IMG/VR virus record: IMGVR_UViG_3300024239_000011 | Location: 268,303-332,302 of that record | Source: a virus | DNA: 64,000 nt | Strand: one strand, 5' to 3' | In this document: piece by piece, positions 35,057 to 55,870 of the stretch | Layout of the letters: each line of letters opens with the position of its first letter | How positions within the stretch are numbered: position 1 is the first letter of the stretch | Position numbers and translations under genes: made by a program | Notes under the pieces: generated by a model | Told to the model about the DNA's origin: nothing | The model's database searches: none | The model's input: the letters and a program-made list of their open reading frames with translations, nothing else

Positions 35057-35062
35057 TCATTT

Positions 35063-35982
35063 CTGTCGCACCACGATCCGTGGTAATTTCTTAGGTACGG
35101 TTTGTCCACCATGGTACTATCGCACCACGACTGCCGTGGTATTTCTTCGCTTTTACGGCTGGGTCCATGGCCACGCCCGTCTTTCGGACCACGAGCAGAT
35201 TGCCGTGATATTTGCTTCAAAGAAAGCACAAGGAATGGCGCTCTGCGAAACACTTTCGCACCACGATTGCCGTGGTATTACCAACATTCACGGTAATGGT
35301 TCTGAATCTGCGGCTTTCGCACCACGAGCAACCGTGGTATTGCCTTCCAACGACAGGAGGAATGCATGCGCAGTCTTTCACTTTCGCACCACGAGCAGAT
35401 TGCCGTGGTATGTTTCCCTGATCGGGACGACATCTACGCCCTGTTCAGACTTTCGCACCACGAGCAGATTGCCGTTGGTATTGCTTCGCGCGACCTGATC
35501 AATTTCCTCGAAGAGATTCGCCTTTCGCACCACGGGTGAATTGTCGTGGTATTTGCTTCCGATGAAATGGAACATGCCGCCAAAACCGACGTACTTTCGC
35601 ACCACGGGCAAGTTGCCATGGTATTGCTTCACCAGCAAAAACAGACCGCATGTCGCGATGGTCAGCTTTCGCACCACGGGCAAATTGCCGTGATATTGCT
35701 TCCAGCTTGGTCACCACCAGCGTGTCGCCCTCGCGCTTTCGCACCACGGGCGAATTGCCGTGGTATTGCTTCTCTGACTATCGCCAAGCAGCAGGTCGAT
35801 CTCTATCGCACCACGGGTGAATTGCCGTGGTATTGCTTCCCCCGGCAACTACCTTGCCTTCGTCCATGTTGATCCTTCGCACCACGGGCGAATTGCCGTG
35901 GTATTGCTTCCCATAGCTGCTGGATTTGACAGCATGATGTTCGAGCTTTCGCACCACGGGCGAATTGCCGTGGTATTGCTTC
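35063..35982. CRISPR. CRISPR-like array: 14 hairpin repeats with unique spacers
   Basis: Fourteen direct repeats (TCGCACCACG starts at 35066, 35120, 35184, 35256, 35317, 35384, 35453, 35525, 35597, 35669, 35739, 35806, 35877, 35949). The conserved right-hand unit is 37 bases: CTTTCGC, stem ACCACGG / CCGTGGT around a short loop, then ATTGCTTC. Intervening segments are 30-35 bases and unrelated to each other. Repeats are near identical on the right and progressively degenerate to the left, as if the leader end were at about 36000 with leftward transcription. No cas gene is in the window. Alternatives are an operator array, a centromere or a replication-related site. Confidence 0.5.
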
Positions 35983-36045
35983 ACCGCGCGCCCTGAGTAC
36001 ACGTAGCCGTCATGTAACGGGCTGTCATGTGCAGTTATCGATGCA

Positions 36046-36185
36046 TACCACGGTTCTCGTGGTGCGAACGACACCCTGTTCAAGGGCGTCGATTTGTATT
36101 TGGTAATACACCACGCCAATCGTGGTGCGACAGCTACCTACAATCGTTGCCAACAGTCCTATAACAATACCACGACAATCGTGGT
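36046..36185. repeat. Three inverted-orientation copies of the array hairpin
   Basis: Units at 36046-36067, 36107-36130 and 36169-36185 have the same ACCACG / CGTGGT stem, but the first two carry the flanking GTGCGA on the opposite side, so they face the main array. Loops differ (5, 5 and 3 bases). They could be degenerate repeats, a leader element, or anti-repeat-like sequence. The 35983-36045 stretch between them and the array holds nothing else I recognise. Confidence 0.5.
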
Positions 36186-36195
36186 CTTTTTATTT
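36169..36195 (+). terminator. Possible terminator formed by last hairpin
   Basis: ACCACGA-caa-TCGTGGT is followed by CTTTTTATTT, so the last inverted unit could end rightward transcription through the array. Confidence 0.5.
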
Positions 36196-38421: not shown

Positions 38422-39438
38422 TTAATACACCAATTCGTCTTGTTCGTGACCTTCGTAAATGATAATCTGCCCGGATACCGCCAGTTCCTTAGCAATAACG
38501 ACGATGAGCGACTGCGCCTGATCCACGTCGCGTAGGCGTACTGGTCCCATTGCGTCCATGTCTTCCTTAAGCATTTTTGCCGCACGTTCGGACATGTTCT
38601 TCATGAACAAGTCTTTGATGCCATCAGAGGCACCCTTGAGCGCCAGGGACAGTCGGTCTTTTTCCACCTGACGCAGTAATGTTTGGATACCAGCGGCATC
38701 CAAGCGCACCAAATCCTCGAAGGTGAACATCAGCGCCTTGATCTTTTCCGCCGATTCGCGGTTGCGTTCTTCGAGCGAGGACATCAAGCGGTTTTCGGTG
38801 GTGCGGTCGAGGTTGTTGAAAATATCTGCCATCAATTCGTGGGTATCGCGGCGTTGGGTGCGGGCGAGGTTGCCCATAAATTCGGTACGCAAGATATCTT
38901 CAACCTGATCCAACACTTCCTTCTGTACCGCCTCCATACGCAGCATGCGCATCACCACTTCCATGGCGAAATTTTCCGGCAGTAGTGCCAGCACGCGGGC
39001 GGCGTGGTCGGGCTTGATCTTGGCCAGCACGACGGCGACGGTCTGCGGGTATTCGTTCTTCAGGTAATTGGCCAGCACCGCTTCGTTGACGTTGCCCAGC
39101 TTGTCCCACATGGTACGACCAGCGGGACCGCGAATCTCTTCCATGATTCGGCTGGCTTGATCGCTGGGTAATGCCTTAGTGAGAAGTCGTTCCGTGCTTT
39201 CGATGGAACCGACTAGCGTACCAGTGGTCAAAAGGTTGTCTGCAAATTCTGCATACAGAGTTTCGATCAATTCAGGCGTAACGGTGCCTAGGTTCGCCAT
39301 GATCTGCGACACTTCCTTGATTTCGTCATCATCAAGGCGGTGCAGAATTTGCGACCCGTGATCTTCCCCGAGTGCCATGAGGAAGATGGCGGCTTTTTGT
39401 GGACCCGTCAGGCAACGATAGTCGGTCTTTATCGGCAT
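38422..39438 (-). CDS. fliG: Flagellar motor switch protein FliG
   Basis: Full-length FliG (338 aa; usual 330-345). The N-terminal FliF-binding domain ([20 protein letters not shown]), the middle domain with the EHPQ-like motif [11 protein letters not shown], and the C-terminal torque domain ([26 protein letters not shown]) are all present. Charged torque residues aligned to E. coli K264, R281, D289 and R297 are kept, and D288 is Glu. The wording is alphaproteobacterial in style. FliG transmits stator force to the rotor and sets rotation direction. Phage genes and terminators flank it, and a phage late promoter with hairpin precedes it, so it is phage-borne. It could replace, jam or re-tune the host motor late in infection. 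Confidence 0.95.
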
Positions 39439-39782: not shown

Positions 39783-40505
39783 TCAGTCACCCTCGTTTTC
39801 CAATGGTTGCCACCCGTTCGAGCCGCAGACTTCGAGCGGTTTGAAGCGGGTTTTATATTTCATGGTTTGTGCCCCTTTTACCCAAAATCCCAGATAGAAA
39901 TACGGAAGGTTTTGGCGTTTGAGTTCTTCAATTACCCAGAGGATCGCAAAAGTACCTAGCGACCGTTTATCCATGGACGGCTCGAAGAACTGGTAGTTTC
40001 CAGAAAACCCGTCATTCAATCGGTCGATCAGGGTCACTCCGATAAGATGCCCATTGGCATCCCGGAATTCGTATAGGAACGTTTCAATCGGGCTGATCTC
40101 AACCATCGACCGATAGTCCTCAAAACTCATCAACGCCATGTCACCGCCAGTGTGTCGCGTTTCCTGATAGCGTGTGAACAATCCGTATTGTTCCTTGGTC
40201 GCAACATTCTTCACGCGAGTAACAATCAAATCGGTATTTGTCTTGATAATTTTGCGCATGGTGCGGTCAGGAGCAAACCCATCAACAACAATACGCACAG
40301 ATTTACACTCCGAGCAGCCCGTGCAGGTTGGAGTATAGATGATGTTATGACTGCGCCGATAGTTTGACGCTGCCATATCACTATAAAATTTCTCGGCATT
40401 TTTCAGGCTGGAAATTTCAGTCACGGTTTTACGTTCAGCCCGTGCCGGAAGATATGGGCACGGCAGCGGTGACGTTGTGAAGTAATATGGAGATTTTCTC
40501 GTCAT
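39783..40505 (-). CDS. bpt: Aspartate/glutamate leucyltransferase (Bpt)
   Basis: I chose ATG 40505 (MTRKSPYYFTTSPLPCPYLP), matching the usual Bpt start; length 240 aa is normal. Family signatures are all visible: CPYLP, a CTGCSECKSVRI cysteine cluster, ETRHTGGDM, LIDRLNDGFSGNYQFFEP, RSLGTFAILW and PYFYLGFWVKGAQTMKYK. Bpt transfers Leu from Leu-tRNA to proteins with N-terminal Asp or Glu, making them ClpS/ClpAP substrates (N-degron pathway). A sigma70-like promoter upstream suggests early expression, so it may redirect proteolysis of host proteins or remove host defences. Confidence 0.93.
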   Translation of the reverse strand: MTRKSPYYFTTSPLPCPYLPARAERKTVTEISSLKNAEKFYSDMAASNYRRSHNIIYTPTCTGCSECKSVRIVVDGFAPDRTMRKIIKTNTDLIVTRVKNVATKEQYGLFTRYQETRHTGGDMALMSFEDYRSMVEISPIETFLYEFRDANGHLIGVTLIDRLNDGFSGNYQFFEPSMDKRSLGTFAILWVIEELKRQNLPYFYLGFWVKGAQTMKYKTRFKPLEVCGSNGWQPLENEGD

Positions 40506-40531
40506 TGAACACCTGTGATACACCACCCGCC

Positions 40532-40790: not shown

Positions 40791-40820
40791 TCATCATTAC
40801 CATTTGGCGTAGGTGGAATG

Positions 40821-41627
40821 ATGGCGATTACGTATACACTTAATAAAACAGATGGAACACAACTTTGCATTGTAAATGAGCTTGTTGAAGATACAACCAC
40901 AATTCCATTGGCGCTTTTTGGTAAAAACCGACTTAATTACGGTAAAAAGCTAAACGAAAATTTTGTTAAGCTACTTGAAAACTTTAATGACGCTGCCGCG
41001 CCATCCAATCCTCTTATCGGGCAATTGTGGTATAATCGTACAACAGGCGATCTCAAGCTATACAATGGTACAACATTTGCTGGTTTGAACGCCGATACGT
41101 TGGACGGCGTTCATAGTGATGAACTGTTGCTAAAATCTCAAAATTTAGCAGATTTACCAGATAAAGCAACCGCGCGTAGTATTTTGTCCGTGTATGAAAA
41201 AACACAGGTATATACCCGAGCAGAAACGTACTCAAAAACTGAAGCTGAAAGTTTATTTGTCAATGTATCCGGCGACACCATGACCGGGTTCTTGTCTCTT
41301 CATGCTGACCCTACGAATGCACTTCACGCCACCACCAAACAATATGTGGATAACCTCGGTGCCTATGGTCACACCGATAACCCAACCATCGCCGCTGGTA
41401 CCTATGTGGACTACAACCTTCAGACTATTTTTGCAGACGCAGGGTATGACGCGAGGGCGGCAGATGTTGGTGTGAAGGTTCTCGACGTAACTAGTGGTTC
41501 GCCAACTGAGAATTGGTATATTGACGCAGGAGCGGTTGCAACTATTGCAGTAAACAATACCACAGTGCGAATAATAAACGAATATACGTCGGCACTTACT
41601 TTCTACATCACAATTATCAAGGTCTAA
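40821..41627 (+). CDS. Tail fibre-like protein, 268 aa
   Basis: I chose the second ATG (MAITYTLNKTDGTQLCIVNE), properly spaced from AGGTGG and equivalent to the start of the paralogue at 43648. The first about 85 residues (to GQLWYNRTTGDLKLYNGTTF) match that paralogue and are probably a virion attachment module. A DTMTGFLSLHADPTNALHAT stretch resembles phage tail-fibre repeats. The C-terminal part is beta-rich and may bind receptor. Confidence 0.8.
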   Translation: MAITYTLNKTDGTQLCIVNELVEDTTTIPLALFGKNRLNYGKKLNENFVKLLENFNDAAAPSNPLIGQLWYNRTTGDLKLYNGTTFAGLNADTLDGVHSDELLLKSQNLADLPDKATARSILSVYEKTQVYTRAETYSKTEAESLFVNVSGDTMTGFLSLHADPTNALHATTKQYVDNLGAYGHTDNPTIAAGTYVDYNLQTIFADAGYDARAADVGVKVLDVTSGSPTENWYIDAGAVATIAVNNTTVRIINEYTSALTFYITIIKV

Positions 41628-41628
41628 T

Positions 41629-43572
41629 ATGATCACCCGCACATACTACCGCGCAAATGGTAATTTCATATTGGTCCCTGACCGTGGTGTCAAAACCGCA
41701 GCGGACTACTATGGCTATAATACTTTATATGCGTCATCTGCTGCTAGTGGATATCAGGAAAGCTCAAAGGTCACCTTGCACTTGTACGAGGACATGACGA
41801 CTGGAAAATTGAGCTTGCACGTCATAAACGACATGTCCCAGGGATTGGGTGATACCGGTGGTGGTGCTAACTATGTTGTGGTGGATAATCTTCCGACAGG
41901 ACATCAAGTAATTGCAGCGGATGATCCTGGCGAGGCATGGTCTAATAGTACGACACAGGCTATTGGTAATTTTGGATGGGGTGATTGCTGCACTGATGGT
42001 ATGGTAATCGATAATATTCAAGATATGACTGCAATTATGATTACCTGTTCTGGGTATAGCGGCGTTGATCAATTCAAGCTTGCGAGCTATGATGGACGCA
42101 TTCAATATCTCCCTCTGACAACAACACTAACAATCGAGAAGATTGTCGAAGAGATAGACGAAACATTGTTTTTACAAGAAAACCCGGTCGCAGGGCAATA
42201 CACAGGTTCTCAAGTTGTATCTTTTACTAAGGCGGCGAATGTTACTGCTAAAATCGCGCTCAATGCCACCCCATCCAATTCAAAAATTATCGCATATGAC
42301 GCCAATGAAAATCCATTCATTGCGGTCGTTGATGACGGGCGTGGACGTGTAGTCTTTGATGGCGGGTTCCCTAGATACTACAACTCAAATTGGAACGGGG
42401 TTGGGTATTACACTCTGCTCAAAGCAGAGCATATGTTTCTCTATCAATGCATGAACTGGATTGTCAATCCGGTAAAGGTTCGTAATGGTAATAAGTCAAT
42501 ACTAATATTCAATGACAGCATCACTGGTGAGAATTACCCACTCAGTTCGTTTAATACAACATTGGATGGGGTTGCCGCGATTGCCGGTTATACTCTTGTA
42601 CACAAGGATCGGTCAAGCTTTGGGGCAGGAGATCAAGTAACAATCCCATTTGTTGAACTTGATCAGTATGCAGCGGTTATTGTGTTTTCAACAAGATACT
42701 GGGGTTCGCCCAGTATTACGGCAGAAACCGGGGCAAATTTCAAGATATACCGGGAAGCCGGAAACGGTATTATGGTGATCACGGACCATTCCGATGGCAC
42801 AACGTCATTTCAGCATACCGCGAACGTTATTGCAAACCAGTTTGGGGCTAATTTTTACGGGTCTGTGGATAGAACCCCCGTCGCAGTTTCGACGTTGAAG
42901 CAAAATTATGGCGTCCATCCTCTTTGGAATAATATCCCTGGAAGTATTGTTGGGGGAGGTAGTGAAGGTAATATATCCGTCACCAATTTCCCTGATTATA
43001 ATGACACGTCGTGGGTAATTGATCCGGCAGACATTTACACCTTTAATGCTCTTGTCCAAGACGAGATTGGGTTCTTCTATCATTTCTCATTTGGATATGC
43101 AATTGGCGTTGATGAACCGATACAATTGAATTTTTCACCGGAGACATTGAAGGATGTGGTGAACGTTGATTTCTACGTCGCTCAATATGCCGGTACTACG
43201 AGTGGGTTTGTGATTGATGCCATCGGAAATGTCCTCGGGTCATTTCGTAATGATGGGACGTTCTCAATGACGTGGTACGATCCAGATTTCGCGACCGTAC
43301 AATTGACGAAAGGTGATGCGCCAATTGTAATCAATATTCGTGTTACGCATCCCTTCTCGTATACCAAGAAAGTTTCTCTGATACGCTATGTGAAGGCGTG
43401 CAATCCTTTAAGTTCATCTTCAATTCTTGATGCACTTCATGGTGCTGAGTTGCGGGATCATCTTGGATCACCAGCAAGGATTATTCGTGACTTCCGCGAT
43501 ATTACCAATAATGATCCAAACAAGAAACCATCATTTGCGCTGTCATATCTGTACTACTATTTGCTTCCGTGA
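41629..43572 (+). CDS. Probable adhesin/tail protein with GATase-like domain, 647 aa
   Basis: N-terminal region (about 1-150) resembles secreted beta-jelly-roll proteins (GWGDCCTDGMVIDNI). Residues about 285-420 have a Rossmann-like order (SILIFNDSITGENYPLSSFN, YAAVIVFSTRY, NGIMVITDHSDGT) reminiscent of ThuA/DUF4350 class-I glutamine-amidotransferase folds; no catalytic Cys is evident. The C-terminus is beta-rich, then helical (SSSILDALHGAELRDHLGSP). It lies between two tail-fibre genes, starting one base after the first, so a receptor-binding or host-surface role is likely. Confidence 0.65.
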   Translation: MITRTYYRANGNFILVPDRGVKTAADYYGYNTLYASSAASGYQESSKVTLHLYEDMTTGKLSLHVINDMSQGLGDTGGGANYVVVDNLPTGHQVIAADDPGEAWSNSTTQAIGNFGWGDCCTDGMVIDNIQDMTAIMITCSGYSGVDQFKLASYDGRIQYLPLTTTLTIEKIVEEIDETLFLQENPVAGQYTGSQVVSFTKAANVTAKIALNATPSNSKIIAYDANENPFIAVVDDGRGRVVFDGGFPRYYNSNWNGVGYYTLLKAEHMFLYQCMNWIVNPVKVRNGNKSILIFNDSITGENYPLSSFNTTLDGVAAIAGYTLVHKDRSSFGAGDQVTIPFVELDQYAAVIVFSTRYWGSPSITAETGANFKIYREAGNGIMVITDHSDGTTSFQHTANVIANQFGANFYGSVDRTPVAVSTLKQNYGVHPLWNNIPGSIVGGGSEGNISVTNFPDYNDTSWVIDPADIYTFNALVQDEIGFFYHFSFGYAIGVDEPIQLNFSPETLKDVVNVDFYVAQYAGTTSGFVIDAIGNVLGSFRNDGTFSMTWYDPDFATVQLTKGDAPIVINIRVTHPFSYTKKVSLIRYVKACNPLSSSSILDALHGAELRDHLGSPARIIRDFRDITNNDPNKKPSFALSYLYYYLLP

Positions 43573-43601
43573 TTGTGGTTTGTGGGCGCACGCATTCACC
43601 A

Positions 43602-43635
43602 TACTCGAAGAATAAATACCAGGAATGTTTGAGTA
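43602..43635 (+). promoter_or_regulatory. Late promoter nested in hairpin
   Basis: Arms TACTCGAA (43602-43609) and TTTGAGTA (43628-43635) pair with one G-U around TAAATA (43613-43618). The GAGGGG ribosome binding site begins immediately after the second arm. Confidence 0.5.
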
Positions 43636-43647
43636 GAGGGGTTGCGG

Positions 43648-44982
43648 ATGGTCTATTTTATTAACAAATACGATGGCACACAGGTAGCGGCAATTGCCGA
43701 AGGTGCAATGGACACCACCAGCACTTCATTGAAGTTGCTTGGGAGAAATTTTATCAACTATGGTGAGATCATCTCCGAGAACTTCGTTCATCTGATGGAG
43801 AATTTTGCCAGCCCAAACCCGCCTGCTGGGGTGCCATTATCTGGGCAGTTGTGGTTCAACACTACCGACAACAAAATGTATTTGTTTAATGGTACGACTT
43901 GGGTTGTCGCCACCGCGATCAACGTGGGTAACACCGATGGTGATCCGAATAATAACGGGGATGGACCAAATGCATTACCACCGTCTGGTACAGCGGAAGG
44001 CGACCTCTATTGGGATGCCGATACGCAGCAGCTTTGGGGTTGGACCGAGATTGGCACCCCGCATTGGGTGTTGATTGGTCCGCCCGCACCGGACAGCGCA
44101 AATTCCAAGCTGGAATATCAGCAGATTGATGGTCATGATTGCCTTGTGATTACCATTGGTGGTCAATACATCGCCATCTGGTCAGCGGTATCGTTCACTC
44201 CAACCACTGCTCCGTGGAATAGCATTTTCCCGGCTGCCGCTACCGGCGTTGAAGGTATTGTTGCCGGATTAACATTCCGCCGCGATGATATGAATAGTAT
44301 CAGAAGTGGTTCGCATTATCCGAGCAAGAACAATAGTTTCAACCTTGGTTCCGCGTCGTTGCGGTGGGATACACTGCATGCGCGTGTTGTAGTTGCTGAT
44401 AATATCCAGCAAACTGGTCAAGGAAGCATTGCTTTTAATAAATTCATGCGTACCGACCAAACCAATGTCCCCGATGTTAATGTGGCTTACGACCTTGGAA
44501 GCACAACGAATCGGTATTCAAAAGTTTACGCAACCGATTTCATGGGTACTTCCACCGCAACGCGCCTTGCCGACTTGGCAGAACGTTTTGCTGCGGATGA
44601 GCCGATGGACGAAGGTACCGTTGTCAAGCTCGGGGGTTCCGCTGAAATTACCAAGACGACCGAAGCGGCAGATATCGATGTCCTCGGGGTGGTGTCCACT
44701 CGTGCGGCATTCAAAATGAATGCCGAAGCTGGTGATGATAACTCCCATCCGTTCGTTGCTTTTGCTGGTCGAGTGCCATGCAAAGTTGTTGGTAAGGTCG
44801 AAAAGGGTGAACGTTTGATTACCTCCAATATTCCTGGGGTTGCTATTGGATTCAAAACAGCGTATCCGGAGATTGCTGGTTTTGGTACAAACCGCCATGC
44901 GCTGGAAATTATTGGCCGTGCGCTTGAATGCAAAAACACTGACGAGGTGGGTTTGGTTATGATCGTGGTTGGTACGAAATAA
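43648..44982 (+). CDS. Tail fibre protein, 444 aa
   Basis: I chose ATG 43648 (MVYFINKYDGTQVAAIAEGA) with GAGGGG six bases upstream. The first about 85 residues are paralogous to the protein at 40821. The C-terminal 140 residues (RLADLAERFAADEPMDEGTV..., VVSTRAAFKMN, VPCKVVGKVEKGERLIT) match a domain common at the end of phage and marine virus fibres, sometimes called peptidase-G2-like. It is likely trimeric and exposed on the particle. Confidence 0.82.
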   Translation: MVYFINKYDGTQVAAIAEGAMDTTSTSLKLLGRNFINYGEIISENFVHLMENFASPNPPAGVPLSGQLWFNTTDNKMYLFNGTTWVVATAINVGNTDGDPNNNGDGPNALPPSGTAEGDLYWDADTQQLWGWTEIGTPHWVLIGPPAPDSANSKLEYQQIDGHDCLVITIGGQYIAIWSAVSFTPTTAPWNSIFPAAATGVEGIVAGLTFRRDDMNSIRSGSHYPSKNNSFNLGSASLRWDTLHARVVVADNIQQTGQGSIAFNKFMRTDQTNVPDVNVAYDLGSTTNRYSKVYATDFMGTSTATRLADLAERFAADEPMDEGTVVKLGGSAEITKTTEAADIDVLGVVSTRAAFKMNAEAGDDNSHPFVAFAGRVPCKVVGKVEKGERLITSNIPGVAIGFKTAYPEIAGFGTNRHALEIIGRALECKNTDEVGLVMIVVGTK

Positions 44983-45038: not shown

Positions 45039-46181
45039 TTGAAGGAAATTGATCTCTATCTCGGTGGCTATTTGCTGTGCTGTGGCGACGTATTCGTTGA
45101 CCTCGGTGATAAGCGATATGCTGATGCCGTATCGATACAGCCGCTTGCCGGGCGGTATGGCATCTACAACGTTCATCTGGATTCGAACCAGTTGAGCCTT
45201 ATCCCCGAGCTTGAGCAGACCTTCCAGGGCGCTACGGTTCGGTTCTACGTCCGCCTGATTGATGGGAACGTCAATTACGCCCCGGCGCCGAACGTCACGT
45301 TCTTCACCGATGATCAAGCGATCCTTGAACAGATGAATGCCGCAAACAGTGGACTTAATGTGACGTTCTTGCTCACCCCGGATGTTGCAATACAGCCAGT
45401 TGTTTCCCTGATTGAAACTTCGCAAAACACGATTCGCCTCCAACTGCTAGTGGTGAAGAATGGTACGGCTGTGAAGTGGAACCCAGGTACCCTGGATGAG
45501 GTGTTCTTTCACGTCTTTGATCATGTGGTTCGCACGGGTAATCCGCGTATCGTATTCGATTATCCGAGTATGCGTGGCGCAGAATACCATTGCTGGTTGG
45601 ATCAGTATTATTTTGTCAATGGTGATACTGAGATTCAATGTCCACTAGTTGGGCATCTTCGCCCCTATGATTTAAATTATGAGCCACTAACCACCGAATG
45701 CGCGTTATGTGCATTTAATAGTAAGTGCTTCAACTGTCGATGGGCGAACTATCATAATACCGCATCTTTTGTGAATACTGGATGTCGTGATGTGTCTGAG
45801 TTTTACGACAAATCATTGACTACCGTACACAACGTGCAATTATTTCAAGTGTTCAGTCAGATGTATGATAAATTCCGCGAGCAACCGGAAGAAATGCTCA
45901 AGGTTTATACGTTTCTGATATCGGAGAACCGCCCTGATCAATGGATTTCGGTGCGGGAGGTATTTGGTGAATTGCTCAAGGAAGCAACCACCAAGGATTA
46001 TGCATTTGATTTTATGGTTTCTGTGATCTCGGCATATACCGATCCGCTTGCGGTATTTTCCACGGAAACTGTGCATACCATTGGGCGAAATATGTTTGAG
46101 ATTGCCGAACCAAATCTCAATCAGCTTTTAGGATACCTATTCCTTATCGAATACGCGAAGATTTACCACGGGGAAGGTTAA
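45039..46181 (+). CDS. SPASM-like protein lacking the radical SAM motif, 380 aa
   Basis: It starts at TTG 45039, supported by AAGGAG seven bases upstream. There is no CX3CX2C motif. Residues 185-249 hold a cysteine cluster (C185, C201, C221, C224, C230, C233, C249) whose CALCAFNSKCFNC core mirrors CQSCVLNPKCFQC in the radical SAM enzyme at 51212, so it probably binds an auxiliary Fe-S cluster. The N-terminal 150 residues are beta-rich and could recognise substrate. First gene of the operon, overlapping the next by one base (TAATG). A variant late core TAAATT lies at 44998. Confidence 0.7.
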   Translation: MKEIDLYLGGYLLCCGDVFVDLGDKRYADAVSIQPLAGRYGIYNVHLDSNQLSLIPELEQTFQGATVRFYVRLIDGNVNYAPAPNVTFFTDDQAILEQMNAANSGLNVTFLLTPDVAIQPVVSLIETSQNTIRLQLLVVKNGTAVKWNPGTLDEVFFHVFDHVVRTGNPRIVFDYPSMRGAEYHCWLDQYYFVNGDTEIQCPLVGHLRPYDLNYEPLTTECALCAFNSKCFNCRWANYHNTASFVNTGCRDVSEFYDKSLTTVHNVQLFQVFSQMYDKFREQPEEMLKVYTFLISENRPDQWISVREVFGELLKEATTKDYAFDFMVSVISAYTDPLAVFSTETVHTIGRNMFEIAEPNLNQLLGYLFLIEYAKIYHGEG

Positions 46182-47401
46182 TGCATAAGATCACCGGGAA
46201 GGTTAAGGGGACGGTCCTGTTCTATGATGAAAGGACCGCGATTCTCTACGACCATGACATGGTTCCGATCACCCAGACCCGTGACTATCAACGGTCTAAG
46301 TTTGGTGGTGCTATTGGTTTGTATAACATCGCCAGCGTGCAGTTTGGGCAATTCTGTAATCTCCGATGCACATACTGCCTGCAACGCACTATAGGAAGTG
46401 TTGATAGCGTTCATACCCCGGAGCGTGGTACGAAAATCCAACAGACGGTTGAGTATATTAGACGTACACTTGATCCGTGTATTCCAACCAAGGTTGATTT
46501 GTGGGGCGGCGAACCGCTGTTCTATTGGGATGATCTGAAGGAGGTTGTCACCAGCCTGGAACCGCATGGGCAGATGCACTTCACGGTGTTTACCAATGGT
46601 ATGGCACTCAAGGAAGAACATCTGGCGTGGTTCGCCAGCCGTCCATCCAAATTCACGGTGTCATTAAGCCATGATGGGTTTGGACAAGCCGCGCGTGGTA
46701 AAGACGTTCTGGACAAAGTGCTTGATTTGTTTGCTCACATAATTGCACCGAATATTGATTATTCAATTGCAACTACTGTGTCAAATACCAACCACGACCT
46801 TCTTGCGCTGAATGATTTGTTCATGGTAGCACTGGATCGTCATGGGCTGCGGGATAGGGCGAAGTGGATCATTGAAATCCCACTGGTGTTCAGCGCAAAG
46901 GATGCTTTTGACCCCAAGCAGTTGCATAAGTTTACCGAGAACCTTAGGGCGTTCTTAACAGAAAATGAGCGCGGAAACCCACGCATTCTTAACAACACCT
47001 TATGGTCTACTTTCGATCTGTTCGGTATATTTGCCCTGCTGAATCGTTTCAACAGCAAACATATACCAGGGTTCTACCGGTGCCATTTGTCCTATGATAA
47101 TGCCGTGGTTGTCAACACCAATGGTGAAGTGCTTCTCTGTCCTCATTCAACTTCTCCGACGCATGTGTTGGGGTCGGTTGACGGCGGTCAGGTCAAACAC
47201 AAATCCGAGGTGATTCGCACCGGATATGATCCGCGTTGCGACGGTTGCCTCGTTCGTGATTTTTGTCGAAGCAGTTGCCCAATCATTGGTGGTACTTTTG
47301 AAGATAATCACAAAGTAATGTGGGCGTACTTCTCGACGTTGTACGAGTTCGCCTTTAAGCGTCTTCTTATGGAAGATGAAGTCGTAATCGAGCGAGTGTG
47401 A
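46181..47401 (+). CDS. Radical SAM/SPASM enzyme 1, 406 aa
   Basis: The radical SAM motif CNLRCTYC is at 59-66 and GGEP at 108-111, after a 50-residue N-terminal extension. The SPASM region near 320-375 has CPHS and CDGCLVRDFCRSSCP, enough for auxiliary clusters. Enzymes of this class modify peptides (thioether, C-C or C-O crosslinks, epimers, oxidation). The extension (TVLFYDERTAILYDHDMVPI) is shared with the next protein. One-base overlap with the upstream gene, one-base gap to the next. Confidence 0.9.
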   Translation: MHKITGKVKGTVLFYDERTAILYDHDMVPITQTRDYQRSKFGGAIGLYNIASVQFGQFCNLRCTYCLQRTIGSVDSVHTPERGTKIQQTVEYIRRTLDPCIPTKVDLWGGEPLFYWDDLKEVVTSLEPHGQMHFTVFTNGMALKEEHLAWFASRPSKFTVSLSHDGFGQAARGKDVLDKVLDLFAHIIAPNIDYSIATTVSNTNHDLLALNDLFMVALDRHGLRDRAKWIIEIPLVFSAKDAFDPKQLHKFTENLRAFLTENERGNPRILNNTLWSTFDLFGIFALLNRFNSKHIPGFYRCHLSYDNAVVVNTNGEVLLCPHSTSPTHVLGSVDGGQVKHKSEVIRTGYDPRCDGCLVRDFCRSSCPIIGGTFEDNHKVMWAYFSTLYEFAFKRLLMEDEVVIERV

Positions 47402-47402
47402 T

Positions 47403-48674
47403 ATGAAATTCAAGATCAGCGCCTTGGATACCCAAGCAACCATCATCTATGACAACGAAGCTAACATCTTTTTTGACGACACGGGAGTGCCGCTCACACA
47501 AACCGCGAATTACATTCGTAGACGCGCGGCCAATTGGGACAAAACGCCGACGTGGCAAACATCCACTAATATTCGGCAAATCAAAATTTCTCTTGGGCAG
47601 TTCTGCAACTATTCCTGTACCTACTGTATGCAGAGCCAAATCGGTGAAGTGGGTAAGGAAGGTTTTGCGAAGAACGTCAACACCGACCGCATCATCGAAA
47701 TCCTCAAGACCAATTACACGGTCCCCGACAACGTTCGCATCGAACTGTGGGGTGGTGAACCATTCTTCTATTGGGAAGATATGGTCAAGCTCATGGAGGC
47801 GTTCGATCATGAAACTGCTGAATTCCAGATTTTCACCAACGGATCAACTTTGCGACGCAAGCACCTTGATTTTTTCAAGGGTTTGAAGAGCCGTAAGATC
47901 GATCTGGGGCTGTCGCACGACGCAGCCAAACAGGAAACCACCCGTGGTAAAAACTATCTCGCTGAAAACCTTGAACTGCTTCGCGAGTATCGTGAATTTA
48001 CGAATATCCAACCTTTCTTGAGTGCCACGTTGACCAACGTGAATTATGATTTGTTGGAAATCAATGACTACTTTCGTGCTATGTTGGAGGCGCACTACGG
48101 GGATACGAACCTGTGGATCAACTTCGACGTGCCGATGATTCACGAAAAGCAGAGTCTCAAGTTCTCACAAGACCAGCTTGATGGTTATAGCGCCAACTTG
48201 CGCAAGTACCTTCAAGCGTGTTGGGAGGATAAGAATCACGAGCGTATGATCCGTGGTTCGTTTTTTGAAGGCGGACAGCCAAGCTTCAAGCGCATCATGG
48301 AATCCTTCCATTCCAAGGATATTGAGTCATTCATCAAATGTGCAGTGGGTTCGCCTAATTCGTTGACCCTCGATCTGGAAGGCAATGTTAAAACCTGCCC
48401 ACACGCCGGGGATGCACATATATTTGGGAACGTCCTTGAGAGCGAAGACCACATTTTCAAGAATGATCCCACCTATGTGCGCACGGTAGAATACGACCAG
48501 TGTCAAAAGTGCTTGGTGCGCCGCTTCTGCCAAGGCGGTTGCCCTATCGTGATTGATAAAAACACGTGGTACTCGTATCACCATGTTTTGTGGACCCACT
48601 ACAGCACCATGTTCCAACTGGCTATGGAATTGTTGCTAGGTAGCAAAAAAGTGATGATCACAAATGTTGACTGA
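47403..48674 (+). CDS. Radical SAM/SPASM enzyme 2, 423 aa
   Basis: CNYSCTYC at 69-75 region (C68, C72, C75), then LWGGEPFFYWED. SPASM cysteines include CAVGS, CPHAGD and CQKCLVRRFCQGGCP. It is the closest relative of the preceding enzyme, including the N-terminal extension (QATIIYDNEANIFFDDTGVP), so the pair arose by duplication. The reaction is unknown. The gene overlaps the next by 11 bases. Confidence 0.9.
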   Translation: MKFKISALDTQATIIYDNEANIFFDDTGVPLTQTANYIRRRAANWDKTPTWQTSTNIRQIKISLGQFCNYSCTYCMQSQIGEVGKEGFAKNVNTDRIIEILKTNYTVPDNVRIELWGGEPFFYWEDMVKLMEAFDHETAEFQIFTNGSTLRRKHLDFFKGLKSRKIDLGLSHDAAKQETTRGKNYLAENLELLREYREFTNIQPFLSATLTNVNYDLLEINDYFRAMLEAHYGDTNLWINFDVPMIHEKQSLKFSQDQLDGYSANLRKYLQACWEDKNHERMIRGSFFEGGQPSFKRIMESFHSKDIESFIKCAVGSPNSLTLDLEGNVKTCPHAGDAHIFGNVLESEDHIFKNDPTYVRTVEYDQCQKCLVRRFCQGGCPIVIDKNTWYSYHHVLWTHYSTMFQLAMELLLGSKKVMITNVD

Positions 48675-49707
48675 TCTGTGCCGCAACGTCTCTATCATCA
48701 ATTTGTTGCTGACCAAAAAGTGCAACTACTCTTGCTCATATTGTCACCAGCTTCACAAAGACGATGTGCGACTTGCGGTATCACCACCCGAGCGTATCCA
48801 CGAAATTGTGGAAAAGCTTGCTACGATCAATGATATCCCGAAGAACGTGCGATTTTTCGGCGGGGAAACGCTACTGCGTTTCCCCGATATCAAAGCCTAT
48901 TTTGAGGCATACCAACCGAACTATCCGGCACTGGGGTTTAGTGTTTATTCGAACGGATCACTCCTAACTCCTGACATGGGCGAATTCCTCGCCAAGAACG
49001 GCGTAGACCTCACATTATCCATCGATGGGTATACAGAGGACGGTCAGCTTGAAAAGGACTATAAACGCCTAGAAACCGTCTTCCCGGCGATCTATCGCAT
49101 CTACGCCACTCACGGACGTATGATATCGGTGTCGGTGACCATCGACATTGCCAAAGTTCAGGCAGCGAAGAACCTGATGGTGTTGTTTACTCGGCGTTTT
49201 CCACGCACCAAACTTTTCATTTCTCCCGTTTTCCATTCGAAGGGTGATGGGAATACCCCATGGAGCATGGATGCGATTGATGACCTTCTGGGGTTTGTGG
49301 AGACCATCAACCAACAACGGGCAACACCGATCCTACAGGGATTGAATGTGATCTCATCGCCTCAGAAATGTATTAGCGTGGATTGGACATTGGCAGTGGA
49401 CCTGTCGGGCGATCTGTCCAGTTGCTTCTTCACGATCACCGACAAGCTGACCTTCCCCGAGTACGTCTATGGGAACCTGTTGGACGACCGATTTGACGCG
49501 CCCCAATATGCTGCGATCTTGGAGCGGAAGCGTCAGATGTTCGACAACCCGTATTGCGCGGCATGCAGGTTCAAAGAAACCTGCATATCTTGCTCGACGT
49601 GCGGGATGCTGTTCAACGAGAACCGGTGGTTCGAAAACGGCGAATGCAAGCCCTTGGTACATTTCTTGTCTGGGATGCATCACATGACCAGGGATGAACC
49701 ACTATGA
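48664..49707 (+). CDS. Radical SAM/SPASM enzyme 3, 347 aa
   Basis: The motif CNYSCSYC (C20, C24, C27) lies near the N-terminus without the long extension. FFGGET replaces the usual GGEP. SPASM cysteines: CISVDW, SSCFF, CAACRFKETCISCSTCG. The C-terminal pattern resembles the enzymes at 51212 and the SPASM-only protein. Likely a peptide-modifying enzyme. Four-base overlap (ATGA) with the next gene. Confidence 0.88.
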   Translation: MLTDLCRNVSIINLLLTKKCNYSCSYCHQLHKDDVRLAVSPPERIHEIVEKLATINDIPKNVRFFGGETLLRFPDIKAYFEAYQPNYPALGFSVYSNGSLLTPDMGEFLAKNGVDLTLSIDGYTEDGQLEKDYKRLETVFPAIYRIYATHGRMISVSVTIDIAKVQAAKNLMVLFTRRFPRTKLFISPVFHSKGDGNTPWSMDAIDDLLGFVETINQQRATPILQGLNVISSPQKCISVDWTLAVDLSGDLSSCFFTITDKLTFPEYVYGNLLDDRFDAPQYAAILERKRQMFDNPYCAACRFKETCISCSTCGMLFNENRWFENGECKPLVHFLSGMHHMTRDEPL

Positions 49708-51209
49708 ATGAAATTACCACTCTGCTGCGTAGCCGTGGGGTCTTTCAAGTGGTACTCACCAATCGCTGCAACTACAATTGCAACTACTGCTATCAGGAAC
49801 GCAATTTTAAGAAGTTCCCGAACGAGTTCGATAGCGCCGAGCAACTTGATCGTGTTTGCGGTAAATTGGTCGAACACCGCAAGGACGACACCCACTTCGA
49901 GTTCCAATTTCTCGGCGGCGAACCGCTGTTGAAGAAAAATGTTTTAATGAATTTTATGCGGGATTATGCATGGAAATATCCCAAGGTAGTATTCAACGTA
50001 ATCACCAATGGTAAACTTCTCGATCACGAAACGGCAGTAGAGTATATCACGAGTCACCCTCTGGCGAAAATCTATTTTTCCTGTGACGGTATTGACCTGA
50101 ATACCAATACGCATCCCAAGACCTGGGAACGTATTGCGATACTGTATGACCGGCTCTATCAACGCTTCCCAGAGCGCATTGGCATCATCCCGGTACTAAC
50201 CAGCAGTACCATCCCTAATTACGTTGCCCTATTGGATTTGATGGCGGAAAAATATCCACTCAGTCATGTTCATGCATTGGCCGCAATCAGCGACCATTTC
50301 GATACCAACTTCGAATGGTCGCCCGAGCATATTCGCAGCGTCGGGGAACAAATCCGTCCGTTCTTCCTGAAACACCCAGGTTGGACCATTGACTATTACA
50401 TGTGGGATTATCCGCTCGATTCCTTCCTCGATTCGGCGGACGACCCGGCGGTGATGCCAAACGGTGACATACATCTGATGCCATCGTATTTTATGGGTGA
50501 AGCAGCAGACCTAAGCAATAAACCAGACTTCAATGTAATCACCGGGGAAGTATACCCGTACCTTGCCCAGAAACAGATCAAAGAGCGGTTGATTCAAGCG
50601 GCGAAAACTGCCAACTCGCGCTGTCAGACATGCCCGATTTCGGGGCATTGTCTTCCGATGAAATTCTTCACATTGGTACACTTACCGGACGAGCAAATTA
50701 CCGCAGAGACCGTGGTTGATGCAGAATGTAACACCATGCTTGATTTCTTCTGGAATATGCCGGTGTTCGCACATTTTCCCACCGGCATATTTCAGAACCT
50801 TCAACAGCAAGTCCAACTGTTCCAGAAGTATCGGACACGATATGTTCGGGCGCTTTATGTTTTAGACCGTTTGGCTATTCCAGTTCTGCAACTTCTAAAT
50901 GACGATTTTGTTGAGAATATCGAAAAACTTGGCGTTGGAAAATATTTCTATCTAGATATGTATGGGGTTTCCCGCCATACCGAAGAAGTGCGCTCCGCAT
51001 ATAATACTCCATTGCGGGATATTTTTTGTCATTTCAAGCATCATCCGAAACGTCGTCCACTTCACCCGGCATTGGTATGTAAAGTTGTTCGTGAATTGTT
51101 GGATAAACCGACCGACCATTTGTTTGAGTTAATTATTCCGAACCTTTACCACAAGGTCTATTATGGTCCAACGTGGCATTGGTCGTTTGACGACACTTAT
51201 AGGTGGTAA
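49704..51209 (+). CDS. Radical SAM enzyme 4 with reduced SPASM, 501 aa
   Basis: CNYNCNYC (C22, C26, C29) and FLGGEPLLKK are intact. Only CQTCPISGHCLPM of the SPASM cluster is obvious; the first cysteine region is replaced by MPNGDIHLMPSY. A 150-residue helical C-terminal extension follows (from about 350) with no cysteine cluster. It has probably diverged in auxiliary cluster or substrate. It has the longest product in the operon and ends three bases before the ATG of the next gene. Confidence 0.85.
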   Translation: MNEITTLLRSRGVFQVVLTNRCNYNCNYCYQERNFKKFPNEFDSAEQLDRVCGKLVEHRKDDTHFEFQFLGGEPLLKKNVLMNFMRDYAWKYPKVVFNVITNGKLLDHETAVEYITSHPLAKIYFSCDGIDLNTNTHPKTWERIAILYDRLYQRFPERIGIIPVLTSSTIPNYVALLDLMAEKYPLSHVHALAAISDHFDTNFEWSPEHIRSVGEQIRPFFLKHPGWTIDYYMWDYPLDSFLDSADDPAVMPNGDIHLMPSYFMGEAADLSNKPDFNVITGEVYPYLAQKQIKERLIQAAKTANSRCQTCPISGHCLPMKFFTLVHLPDEQITAETVVDAECNTMLDFFWNMPVFAHFPTGIFQNLQQQVQLFQKYRTRYVRALYVLDRLAIPVLQLLNDDFVENIEKLGVGKYFYLDMYGVSRHTEEVRSAYNTPLRDIFCHFKHHPKRRPLHPALVCKVVRELLDKPTDHLFELIIPNLYHKVYYGPTWHWSFDDTYRW

Positions 51210-51211
51210 TC

Positions 51212-52588
51212 ATGGACAACCCTTTCAGTCAGGTCTATTGGATCAATCTGCTCCTGACTAATAAATGTAACAAGCAGTGTTCGTACTGCTATGAGCAGCA
51301 TAAAGCCGAGTTTGAACGGTCGTACATCAATGCACATCGTGTGGATGAAATCTGCGCGAAGATGGACACCATGAACTCGCTTCAGAAAACCCTCCATTTT
51401 TTTGGCGGCGAACCCATGCTGAAGTTCGACACCATCATGGAGTACATGCGGGCATCGTCCCATAAATACCCCACATTGTCTTACGTGATTATCACCAACG
51501 GCACGCTACTGACTCCTCAGAAATTCGAGGATTTCGTTTCGCACGGCGGCTCATTCTACATTTCCTGCGACGGCTGGGGGATCGATAACACTGACATCAC
51601 AACCAAGGATTTCAGTGCTATCAAGGATGTGGTTGAGGCATGCTTCCCGGTGGTCGCAGCCTATGATAAACGCATTACGTTCGACGTAGTTGTGCATCCC
51701 CGTGAGGTCGCGTCGTTCGGGCGGTTTATGCAGTACCTCGCCGGAAGTCCGCATTTCGAGCAAATCAATATCCACATCAAGCCATTGCTATACAGCATGA
51801 CCGATGGGTTGGTGCGCTGGGATGACGCAGCGATTAATCAATTCTTACAGGAATGTATGAATGCCATTGTGAAATCAAAGGGCATCAATTTCGAGATAGA
51901 AGGGTTCTACGAGAAGTCATGGGGCACGTGCATGACCATGGCAAACAACCTGAATGTTGATGTTGAGGGTAATTTTTCAGGGTGTTATTTTCTACTGAAC
52001 CAACATAAAGCCACCTCGGCATTCGATGATGCCATTTTTGGCAACATTCTAACCGGCGAGATTGATACTGCCAAAATCGCCAACTTTAAACGCCTGGAAC
52101 AGGAACTCTACCAGTCCTCTAAATGCCAATCTTGCGTATTGAACCCAAAATGCTTCCAGTGCAGTGCTGGACTGTACACAACCCTTGGAAAGTGGTACGA
52201 CAACGACAAGCATTGCGAAATCGTTATCCCATTCATCCAACGGTTGAATTCCTTCCAAGCCATGAAAGAGGATGCATATATCATTGGCTGCCTGAAGGAG
52301 AAAATCCAGGAACATGGGTCTGAGTGGTTTGTGACTCGCCTTAAGTATTGGACGACAGTTCACATGCAAGCGACGTTGCTGGAAATTTGTAATGCACATA
52401 TCCCAGCACAAAACATTATGGCGGGAAATGCGCCACTTGATTTGGGTCAGTGGCTCAGTGATGCGGGGGCAAAGCAAGTAGCAGAGCTTCATCACATTTT
52501 CACGCCTGCATTGGCTGATCTTTCTGCTCAAGATCAGTTTACGCTTTGCGTTGCGCGTGTGATTGAGAAAGAACATCCCAAAACCTAA
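51212..52588 (+). CDS. Radical SAM/SPASM enzyme 5, 458 aa
   Basis: I chose ATG 51212 with AGGTGG upstream, over the GTG at 51203. CNKQCSYC (C19, C23, C26) and FFGGEPMLKF are present. SPASM: CMTMANN, SGCYFLL, CQSCVLNPKCFQCSAG and a later C in NDKHC. A C-terminal helical extension of about 100 residues follows. Last gene of the operon, followed by the inverted repeat and late promoter of the discoidin-like gene. Confidence 0.9.
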   Translation: MDNPFSQVYWINLLLTNKCNKQCSYCYEQHKAEFERSYINAHRVDEICAKMDTMNSLQKTLHFFGGEPMLKFDTIMEYMRASSHKYPTLSYVIITNGTLLTPQKFEDFVSHGGSFYISCDGWGIDNTDITTKDFSAIKDVVEACFPVVAAYDKRITFDVVVHPREVASFGRFMQYLAGSPHFEQINIHIKPLLYSMTDGLVRWDDAAINQFLQECMNAIVKSKGINFEIEGFYEKSWGTCMTMANNLNVDVEGNFSGCYFLLNQHKATSAFDDAIFGNILTGEIDTAKIANFKRLEQELYQSSKCQSCVLNPKCFQCSAGLYTTLGKWYDNDKHCEIVIPFIQRLNSFQAMKEDAYIIGCLKEKIQEHGSEWFVTRLKYWTTVHMQATLLEICNAHIPAQNIMAGNAPLDLGQWLSDAGAKQVAELHHIFTPALADLSAQDQFTLCVARVIEKEHPKT

Positions 52589-52633: not shown

Positions 52634-52639
52634 TGCTTG

Positions 52640-53503
52640 ATGGTGGTAACGGTAATCAGCGGCGGTGATAATTCATCCAGCTATGCAAAAGACAAAGCTT
52701 TTGATAATTCGATAACGACATCCTGGCGAAGCTTACAGACCGGCGTTGATGTTGTAAATGCCGCATGGCTCGGTCAAGATTTCGGTATTCCAGTTTACGT
52801 GATTTCTGCGAGCTACCGTAAAGGGTCATACGATCCGGCATCGGTTGCGATACAGTACAGTGATGATGGATTGTCATGGACGAATACTGGTGTAACGTTT
52901 ACCAGTTTTAGCAACGCGGTGGAAAAGAAAAGTATAGCAGTGGGTACACCGCATCGTTACTGGCGTGCAATTGCCACAGGTGCCACGGCAGGTACCAACC
53001 CATGGGAAATTGTAGAATTGACTTTCGGCATCGCCACAACAGGATTACCCAAGTACATAACGAAGGTAGTGTCTCTTGGCGCAATAACCAATTTGAACGC
53101 AACGGCATTGAAGGCACGGGTGAATACGTTGAAGACAAAGTTTGTTCAGAACGGCATTCTCACGGCAGTAGATATGCAGGAATTTTGGAGCATTCTTCGG
53201 GATTTCAGCCAACACTACCACCCATACACGGAAACGAAGCAGGCGATTGATAATATTCAGGCTGGTATTGATGCTATTACCGATTCAACAACAAAGACCA
53301 ATGCCCAGAACGCCGCAAACCCTCATAAGGTAACCGTTTTGAGTAACACCGGTCCTATATTATTTGACAATCCGATCACATCTGGGTTTTCTGTGGGGTT
53401 TGTATTGGATAAAGTGACAATGAATACGTTTATTGAAATGATAAATGCATCCCAACGTCATAAACATAGTGTAACTGATCGTTTTTTTGACACAGCAGTC
53501 TAA
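52640..53503 (+). CDS. Tail protein with discoidin-like (F5/8C) domain, 287 aa
   Basis: I chose ATG 52640, six bases after GGAGG. The first about 140 residues match the F5/8 type C (discoidin) pattern: SSSYAKDKAFDNSITTSWRS, then WLGQDFG, YRKGSYDPASVAIQYSDDG, YWRAIATG. Such domains bind sugars. The C-terminal half has two short His motifs (SQHYHPYT and RHKHSVTD) like the metal-binding HxH motifs of T4-type fibre tips. Probably a tail-fibre or tip protein. Confidence 0.72.
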   Translation: MVVTVISGGDNSSSYAKDKAFDNSITTSWRSLQTGVDVVNAAWLGQDFGIPVYVISASYRKGSYDPASVAIQYSDDGLSWTNTGVTFTSFSNAVEKKSIAVGTPHRYWRAIATGATAGTNPWEIVELTFGIATTGLPKYITKVVSLGAITNLNATALKARVNTLKTKFVQNGILTAVDMQEFWSILRDFSQHYHPYTETKQAIDNIQAGIDAITDSTTKTNAQNAANPHKVTVLSNTGPILFDNPITSGFSVGFVLDKVTMNTFIEMINASQRHKHSVTDRFFDTAV

Positions 53504-53514
53504 GGAAGTCCGAT

Positions 53515-53898
53515 ATGGCTGAACAAAATGTTCCTTCGAATACCGATGCAGCAACGTATTCGACCACAGCAGCGGAAACCCCGCAAATCACCGCACCGCA
53601 AATACTGACGGCCAACATGTTCCAAAACATGTTGAATGTGCTGGAAAATGCTCTCGGTAGCCATACCCATACGCATCAAGATACCGCATTGAATGCGTGT
53701 ACGTGTTGGAACTATACACCGTGTGACCGTTTAGTGACCAACCTTACCTGTGTTGATTGTTCGCCTGGAAATTGTGCTGGGCAGTGCCGCACGTGTGGTA
53801 CCGCGCAATGTGGGACTTATGAGTGTGCCTGTGCTGATGTTCAGGGATGGGTTGATAATACTCCTGGGGGTAACGGGACACCCTGCACACTGCCTTGA
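53515..53898 (+). CDS. Cysteine-rich tail-tip-like protein, candidate radical SAM substrate, 127 aa
   Basis: Residues 1-60 look like a tail-fibre segment with a helix (LTANMFQNMLNVLENALG) and HTHTH at 50-54. Residues 62-124 hold 12 cysteines (62, 64, 70, 79, 82, 87, 91, 94, 99, 104, 106, 124), rich in Gly, Thr and Asn. This leader-plus-Cys-core layout resembles precursors of thioether-crosslinked peptides. It lies 0.9 kb after the radical SAM operon. Alternatives are a disulfide-rich or metal-binding tip. Cytoplasmic expression makes free thiols available. Confidence 0.65.
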   Translation: MAEQNVPSNTDAATYSTTAAETPQITAPQILTANMFQNMLNVLENALGSHTHTHQDTALNACTCWNYTPCDRLVTNLTCVDCSPGNCAGQCRTCGTAQCGTYECACADVQGWVDNTPGGNGTPCTLP

Positions 53899-55486: not shown

Positions 55487-55870
55487 ATGGTCAATTTTGA
55501 TATGCGCATTCTGGTAGTCGATGACTATGCTACGATGCAGAAGATTGAGCGCAATTTGCTCAAGCAGATTGGTTTCGGGAATGTTGATACCGCAAATGAC
55601 GGCTCCCAGGCACTTCAAATGCTTCGGTTGCAGCACTATGATCTTATCCTGTCCGATTGGAACATGGAGCCGATGACCGGTCTGATGTTGTTGCGCGAAG
55701 TGCGCAATGACCCTGCCCTGAAGCATATCCCATTCATCATGGTAACTGCGGAAACTAAACAGGAAAATGTGATCGCTGCTCGGGAAGCAGGGGTGTCCAA
55801 CTATATAATTAAACCCTTTACGGCGGATACATTAAAGAAGAAACTACAGTCGGTTATCGGGGATTTCTAA
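55487..55870 (+). CDS. cheY: CheY-like chemotaxis response regulator
   Basis: A single receiver domain of 127 aa with every CheY landmark: acidic pair D12/D13, phosphoacceptor D57 (LSDWNMEPMTG), T87 (MVTAE), switch residue Y106 and K109-P110. The wording DWNMEPMTGLMLLREVR and ENVIAAREAGVSNYIIKPF is alphaproteobacterial in style. Phospho-CheY binds the flagellar switch and changes rotation. No kinase or output domain is attached. With the phage FliG it suggests control of host motility. AGGTGG precedes the ATG; its last base is shared with the next start. Confidence 0.94.
   Translation: MVNFDMRILVVDDYATMQKIERNLLKQIGFGNVDTANDGSQALQMLRLQHYDLILSDWNMEPMTGLMLLREVRNDPALKHIPFIMVTAETKQENVIAAREAGVSNYIIKPFTADTLKKKLQSVIGDF

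Follow-up and report, generated by a model that had tools for sequence, protein, structure and literature searches.

The question raised by this locus is whether the radical SAM (rSAM) operon in the tail region of a large virus acts on the small, cysteine-rich protein encoded just downstream of it, and if so, what becomes of that protein's cysteines. The window, as the whole stretch of 64,000 nucleotides analyzed here is called, belongs to a virus record that is 543,035 bases long. The gene at 53515–53898 (+ strand) starts 11 nt after the stop codon of the preceding gene, and the Shine-Dalgarno-like aaggaag ahead of its ATG makes a good ribosome-binding site. Its translation, a protein of 127 amino acids, bears out the original prediction of 12 cysteines at residues 62–124 following a segment with HTHTH, as all of its 12 cysteines fall within that span. 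The protein can be divided into a leader, or HxH tail module (residues 1–61, 53515–53697, with a helix at 33–48 and HTHTH at 50–54), and a Cys-rich core with the 12 cysteines (residues 62–127, 53698–53895) that is predicted to be disordered. AF2 yields the leader helix only, at a pLDDT of 82–90, and the core remains below 50.

Against a background Cys frequency of 1.8% in 16 neighboring genes, the probability of at least 12 cysteines is 3e-6 in 127 residues and 2e-9 in 66 residues. These values are descriptive only, since the region was picked for being Cys-rich, but no second coding-like ORF in the window has this Cys density. The core is long and Thr/Gly-rich, its cysteines are surrounded mainly by Thr, Gly, Asn, Pro and Ala, and apart from the units CTC and CAC it harbors no CxC array. 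No relatives of the exact 12-Cys core were found anywhere searched, nor did direct searches with the 127-aa protein reveal relatives in viral contigs or phage records. The CADVQGWV in the core resembles the T4-like motif CDxQxWLQ, but this is a resemblance only, and homology has not been established.

The operon consists of five consecutive ORFs on the + strand (46181–52588), each scoring above the Pfam Radical_SAM (PF04055) cut-off and carrying the CX3CX2C and GGE motifs; these are the only rSAM domains in the entire record. The SPASM cysteines CX9-15GX4C ... CX2CX5CX3C are present in the enzymes at 46181–47401 and 47403–48674, and the variant CX2CX5CX2C in those at 48664–49707 and 51203–52588, whereas the SPASM domain of the remaining enzyme (49704–51209, 501 aa) is degraded. 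A 380-aa protein encoded upstream at 45039–46181 (+) has a SPASM-like CX2CX5CX2C...C pattern without the rSAM CxxxCxxC, and no relatives of it were present in the fetched loci. The predicted structure of the 47403 enzyme (pLDDT 81.7) includes a short N-terminal extension of three strands and one helix, and the 48664, 49704 and 51203 enzymes begin directly at the rSAM core. Among the genes of the window neighborhood there was no Pfam match to PqqD/RRE. PHROG 1802 is the best PHROG for all five enzymes.

Searches of viral contigs with single enzymes yielded no relatives; alignment queries were needed, and those built with the window enzymes led to 120 viral loci, some of which are overlapping stretches of one contig. 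Three 'phage' matches (L010, L011 and L014) were read as bacterial fragments and set aside. Most multi-enzyme loci contain a common operon of three rSAM genes and a 381-aa CxxxCxxC protein. In the enzyme tree, 46181 and 47403 form a pair whose sister is the third enzyme ('rSAM3') of this common operon. The larger clade around them also contains the single enzymes that accompany CN arrays, and to judge from their sequences the two are duplicated copies of this array-partner rSAM. The 48664, 49704 and 51203 enzymes are nearest the first enzyme ('rSAM1'), with weak support and long branches. Based on this placement, the window operon looks like two of the common components doubled and tripled; it lacks two others, a 359-aa rSAM and the 381-aa protein.

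Nearly all multi-enzyme loci also encode a protein of 63–93 aa, arranged in the order leader, H(T/N/S)HxFYDDY, C(E/N)C(Q/N)CxC, RG(T/S)(L/I), in which a Cys core such as CECQCQC or CNCNCNC is placed right after the HxH module. No PHROG, Pfam or NCBIfam model is dedicated to this small family. With the Cys-density cut-off set at 8 in 50, later refined, wrong-frame ORFs were flagged and the main family was missed, as its cores have only 3–6 cysteines. A same-strand Cys/HxH pattern was found near the enzymes in 93 of the 120 loci, a few of these matches being wrong-frame or far off. Complete operons missed by this pattern had the gene on the opposite strand or a different Cys-rich protein, and complete loci with at least three rSAM genes have a Cys-core protein. 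An HMM of the family that excluded the window protein matches residues 12–72 of the 53515–53898 product (32.4 bits, E 3.7e-9), its sole significant match among all window ORFs, and a single-sequence phmmer comparison with the leader family gives 2e-6. What aligns with the 63–93 aa family is the leader. The window protein thereby has the features of this family: a match to its HMM, a Cys core directly after the HxH, and an adjacent rSAM operon.

It had been proposed that the Cys protein and the rSAM operon belong together and that this would be visible as co-occurrence across phages. When viral contigs were searched with the leader motif alone, rSAM genes lay within a few kb in 39/39 contigs, upholding the proposed link; in two of the 39 the gene was convergent to the operon. 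The same search of bacterial genomes yielded three loci, with rSAM in L291 and L292 and none in L293. Co-occurrence was also seen for tail proteins with Cys arrays, for which reading frame provides a control. DNA that could code for CNCNCNC was present in at least 120 viral stretches, in which ORFs of at least 60 aa were counted. Among the matches listed, an rSAM was present within 5 kb of 45/65 in-frame ORFs, rising to 37/44 for those with at least 6 kb of flank and 13/14 for those with full flank, as opposed to 0/55 for out-of-frame occurrences (0/28 with at least 6 kb of flank). All 45 in-frame arrays with a nearby rSAM in this set are on the same strand as the rSAM, and 43 of the 45 end no more than 11 residues from the C-terminus. 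The corresponding Fisher p, again for the matches listed, is 1.3e-17, which overstates the evidence because related contigs are not independent, although the contrast between in-frame and out-of-frame occurrences remains absolute.

The pairing of Cys-rich tail proteins with rSAM operons is, therefore, well supported. The tail region is rich in other candidate proteins, and it can be argued that the operon acts on another target, such as a tail protein, a nucleotide or a host factor, with the Cys protein a mere bystander in the tail locus. The counts of 39/39 and, among the matches listed, 45/65 versus 0/55 speak against such a bystander, as does the occurrence of the array-partner rSAM clade with very different tail proteins that share only the array as a feature, and this alternative appears very improbable. 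That the core of 53515–53898 is a modified substrate is instead inferred with high confidence. With neither a CxC array nor, in anything searched, a relative of the core to draw on, the claim for this particular core depends on the leader, the position and the Cys content.

The leader of 53515–53898 had also been read as a tail module, and the neighborhood agrees with this: in most loci, a neighboring structural-type gene carries the same HxH module again. The leader HMM matches two HxH modules in a protein of ~125 aa that is usually encoded nearby and, weakly, copies of the module in the window's 288-aa neighbor (52637–53503, +), a tail-type protein directly upstream of the Cys-rich gene that combines an F5/8 type C-like domain with two HxH modules. 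Upstream of the operon (40818–44982, +) are three tail-fiber or virion structural genes, with matches to the tail fiber and virion structural PHROGs. In T4 gp37, P2 gpV and R-pyocin fibers, iron is bound by HxH pairs, one iron per trimer site (PMC6116203). The N-terminal HxH module may thus allow the protein to join the neighboring tail proteins, or to be recognized as one of them is. By inference, it becomes part of a trimeric tail structure with its Cys core at the end, and a position at the virion tip is considered fairly likely.

A different fate for the product has to be weighed at this point. A small precursor with a leader and a core, accompanied by peptide-maturase enzymes, is what might be expected of a secreted or injected RiPP, such as a bacteriocin-like peptide that is carried by the phage and is not part of its structure. 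The neighboring genes that were scanned include no peptidase or transporter, so that a leader protease was not found, and no immunity gene was present among the neighbors tested. The leader, moreover, is a repeated tail module, and in other phages the array forms the C-terminus of a long tail protein, making a secreted peptide an improbable outcome compared with a structural tip.

Several other genes in the window deserve mention in their own right. A full-length FliG, the flagellar motor switch protein, is encoded at 38422–39438 (−) with all three FliG domains over cut-off, and a stand-alone CheY-like response-regulator receiver at 55487–55870 (+); together these suggest interference with host motility or chemotaxis. 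The gene at 39783–40526 (−) encodes an arginine/leucine-tRNA-protein transferase, an N-degron enzyme in a phage, with ATE_N and ATE_C both over cut-off. At 35060–36190, at least ten diverged repeats of ~42 nt with a spacing of ~70–72 nt place ACCACG...CGTGGT palindromes between genes.

As to the chemistry, the top NCBIfam matches of the window enzymes include PapB, sulfatase maturase, viperin and similar maturase models, and the predicted structure of the 47403 enzyme is closest to CteB and anSMEcpe, in agreement with sequence profiles. Every NCBIfam equivalog cut-off is far above the window-enzyme scores, and the curated maturase models (PapB NF047865, SCIFF TIGR03974) are not met, the best score being 80.7 bits versus a cut-off of 340. 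In the proposed mechanism, the adjacent rSAM/SPASM enzymes act on the Cys-rich C-terminal core, where they would use a 5'-deoxyadenosyl radical to join Cys sulfurs to carbons of core residues, most likely as thioether bridges. There are no mass data, and whether the modification is a thioether is, for now, an even bet. Since Thr, Gly, Asn, Pro and Ala surround the cysteines of the window core, its bridge pattern would differ. PapB-type targets are acidic residues. In the small family, the X of CxC is Q, N, A, E or D in 163/173 cases, a bias that fits targets of this type but does not prove them.

The same bias is compatible with several chemistries, and some of the enzyme matches are to epimerases or carbon-carbon bond formers (EpeE, SuiB, YhhB-type). 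As several different rSAM clades also act together, the core may undergo a change other than thioether formation, such as epimerization, carbon-carbon cyclophane bonding, decarboxylation or methylthiolation. This possibility is kept open, albeit as a distinctly weaker one: what remains constant across the substrates is cysteine, and CteB, which forms thioethers, and PapB-type enzymes are among the best neighbors by sequence and fold whose products are known. It is also conceivable that the cysteines bind a metal (Zn, Cu, Fe or an Fe-S cluster) at the tail tip in the manner of a metallothionein, and that the rSAM enzymes only load or tune this site. CxC arrays are good soft-metal ligands, and the HxH motif of the leader is a known iron site in tail fibers, but a metal site would not need two to five SPASM enzymes, and the link with rSAM is seen specifically for the in-frame array. 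SPASM enzymes of known function, furthermore, act mostly on peptides or proteins. Metal binding is, therefore, a doubtful explanation for the locus, yet not an excluded one, as modified cysteines could also bind metal.

The partners of these enzymes are diverse. Long tail proteins ending in NCNCNCNC constitute one class of array partner. T4-like marine phages, so labeled based on neighboring genes, encode 132-aa proteins with 20 cysteines at 10–25 bp from an rSAM, and further partners are Gly-rich proteins with a short CxC cluster. At a few single-rSAM loci there are only three cysteines ahead of a Gly-rich run, or none are evident. Achromobacter phage JWF has NCNCDCNCNCSC directly ahead of a Hint domain. 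In this arrangement (L002:5790–7241 and L090:8373–9227), the array sits immediately before the self-cleaving Hint domain, and cleavage would expose the array as a new C-terminus. Erwinia/Salmonella jumbo phages, including SPN3US, encode GCSxxCSG proteins ahead of two rSAM genes; such Cys-repeat genes (L294:5001–5168 in SPN3US) also occur in other Seoulvirus/Erskinevirus members and are unannotated in many named jumbo-phage genomes. The SPN3US genetics paper does not mention the Cys-repeat or rSAM genes under the terms looked for. Two DUF3050 (haem-oxygenase-like) proteins, a possible further maturation enzyme, come right after the common rSAM operon at L016:11216–12830; relatives are present in 67 fetched stretches, many of which overlap.

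Taken together, a tail-tip protein with a Cys core modified by adjacent, phage-encoded rSAM/SPASM enzymes is the best overall explanation for this locus, and a likely one. The predicted outcome would be a tip, located distally on a trimeric tail part, that is stapled and resists oxidation and that by inference may benefit host adsorption or stability. The recurrence of the pairing in many unrelated phages suggests that viruses cross-link their own tail tips with peptide-natural-product chemistry. The broader proposal, favored by a small measure only, is that several phage lineages have their own machinery for cross-linking Cys arrays that form the C-terminal tips of their tail proteins, and direct RiPP-type chemistry at a part of the virion instead of a secreted peptide; the window would be an elaborated version, with five enzymes, a SPASM-only helper and a 12-Cys core. 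If true, the installation of radical-made cross-links in viral tails would have consequences for adhesion and stability, and a function would be at hand for a phage rSAM family so far annotated by domain only. For enzymology and peptide stapling, the pairs also offer a large set of natural enzymes and substrates whose cores (CNCNCNC, CECQCQC) are very simple.

No description of the pairing of Cys arrays with rSAM was found in the open-access literature, and its novelty is provisional because the search was limited to such papers, leaving most subscription journals and preprints outside its scope. PHROG 1802 is listed as a radical SAM domain-containing protein in category other, with no function or partner protein given. 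The T4 gp37 and pyocin fibers have HxH modules in a tail part, as is the case here, but in the parts of the sources that were available (PMC6116203, PMC11705849), neither a Cys core nor an rSAM partner is described for them. Another parallel is phrog_6085 of the Erwinia/Salmonella jumbo phages, a Cys-repeat protein of the tail region encoded upstream of two rSAM genes, although its leader is unrelated to the HxH leader and its function is listed as unknown. CXXX-repeat systems (TIGR04114/TIGR04115/TIGR04117) also place an rSAM beside long Cys-repeat proteins, and CSG-type repeat proteins beside an rSAM are found in phages as well (L008, L132). These three models do not match the window protein, and the arrays described here are CxC or irregular and reside within tail proteins.

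Among the nearest known systems are also the ranthipeptides and SCIFF sactipeptides (CteB, PapB), which likewise combine rSAM/SPASM enzymes with a Cys-rich core after a leader, and CteB is both the top fold match and among the top sequence matches of the window enzyme type. As in these systems, a Cys-rich precursor is encoded beside its maturase. The resemblance to sactipeptide or ranthipeptide precursors that had been noted from the DNA alone holds for the type of enzyme, which is related to CteB and PapB, and fails for the fate of the product, given the tail leader and the absence of export genes among the neighbors scanned. With scores far below the family cut-offs, the window thus differs from ranthipeptides and sactipeptides in having a tail HxH leader, five enzymes, no detected RRE and no export, and in that its product is probably part of the virion.
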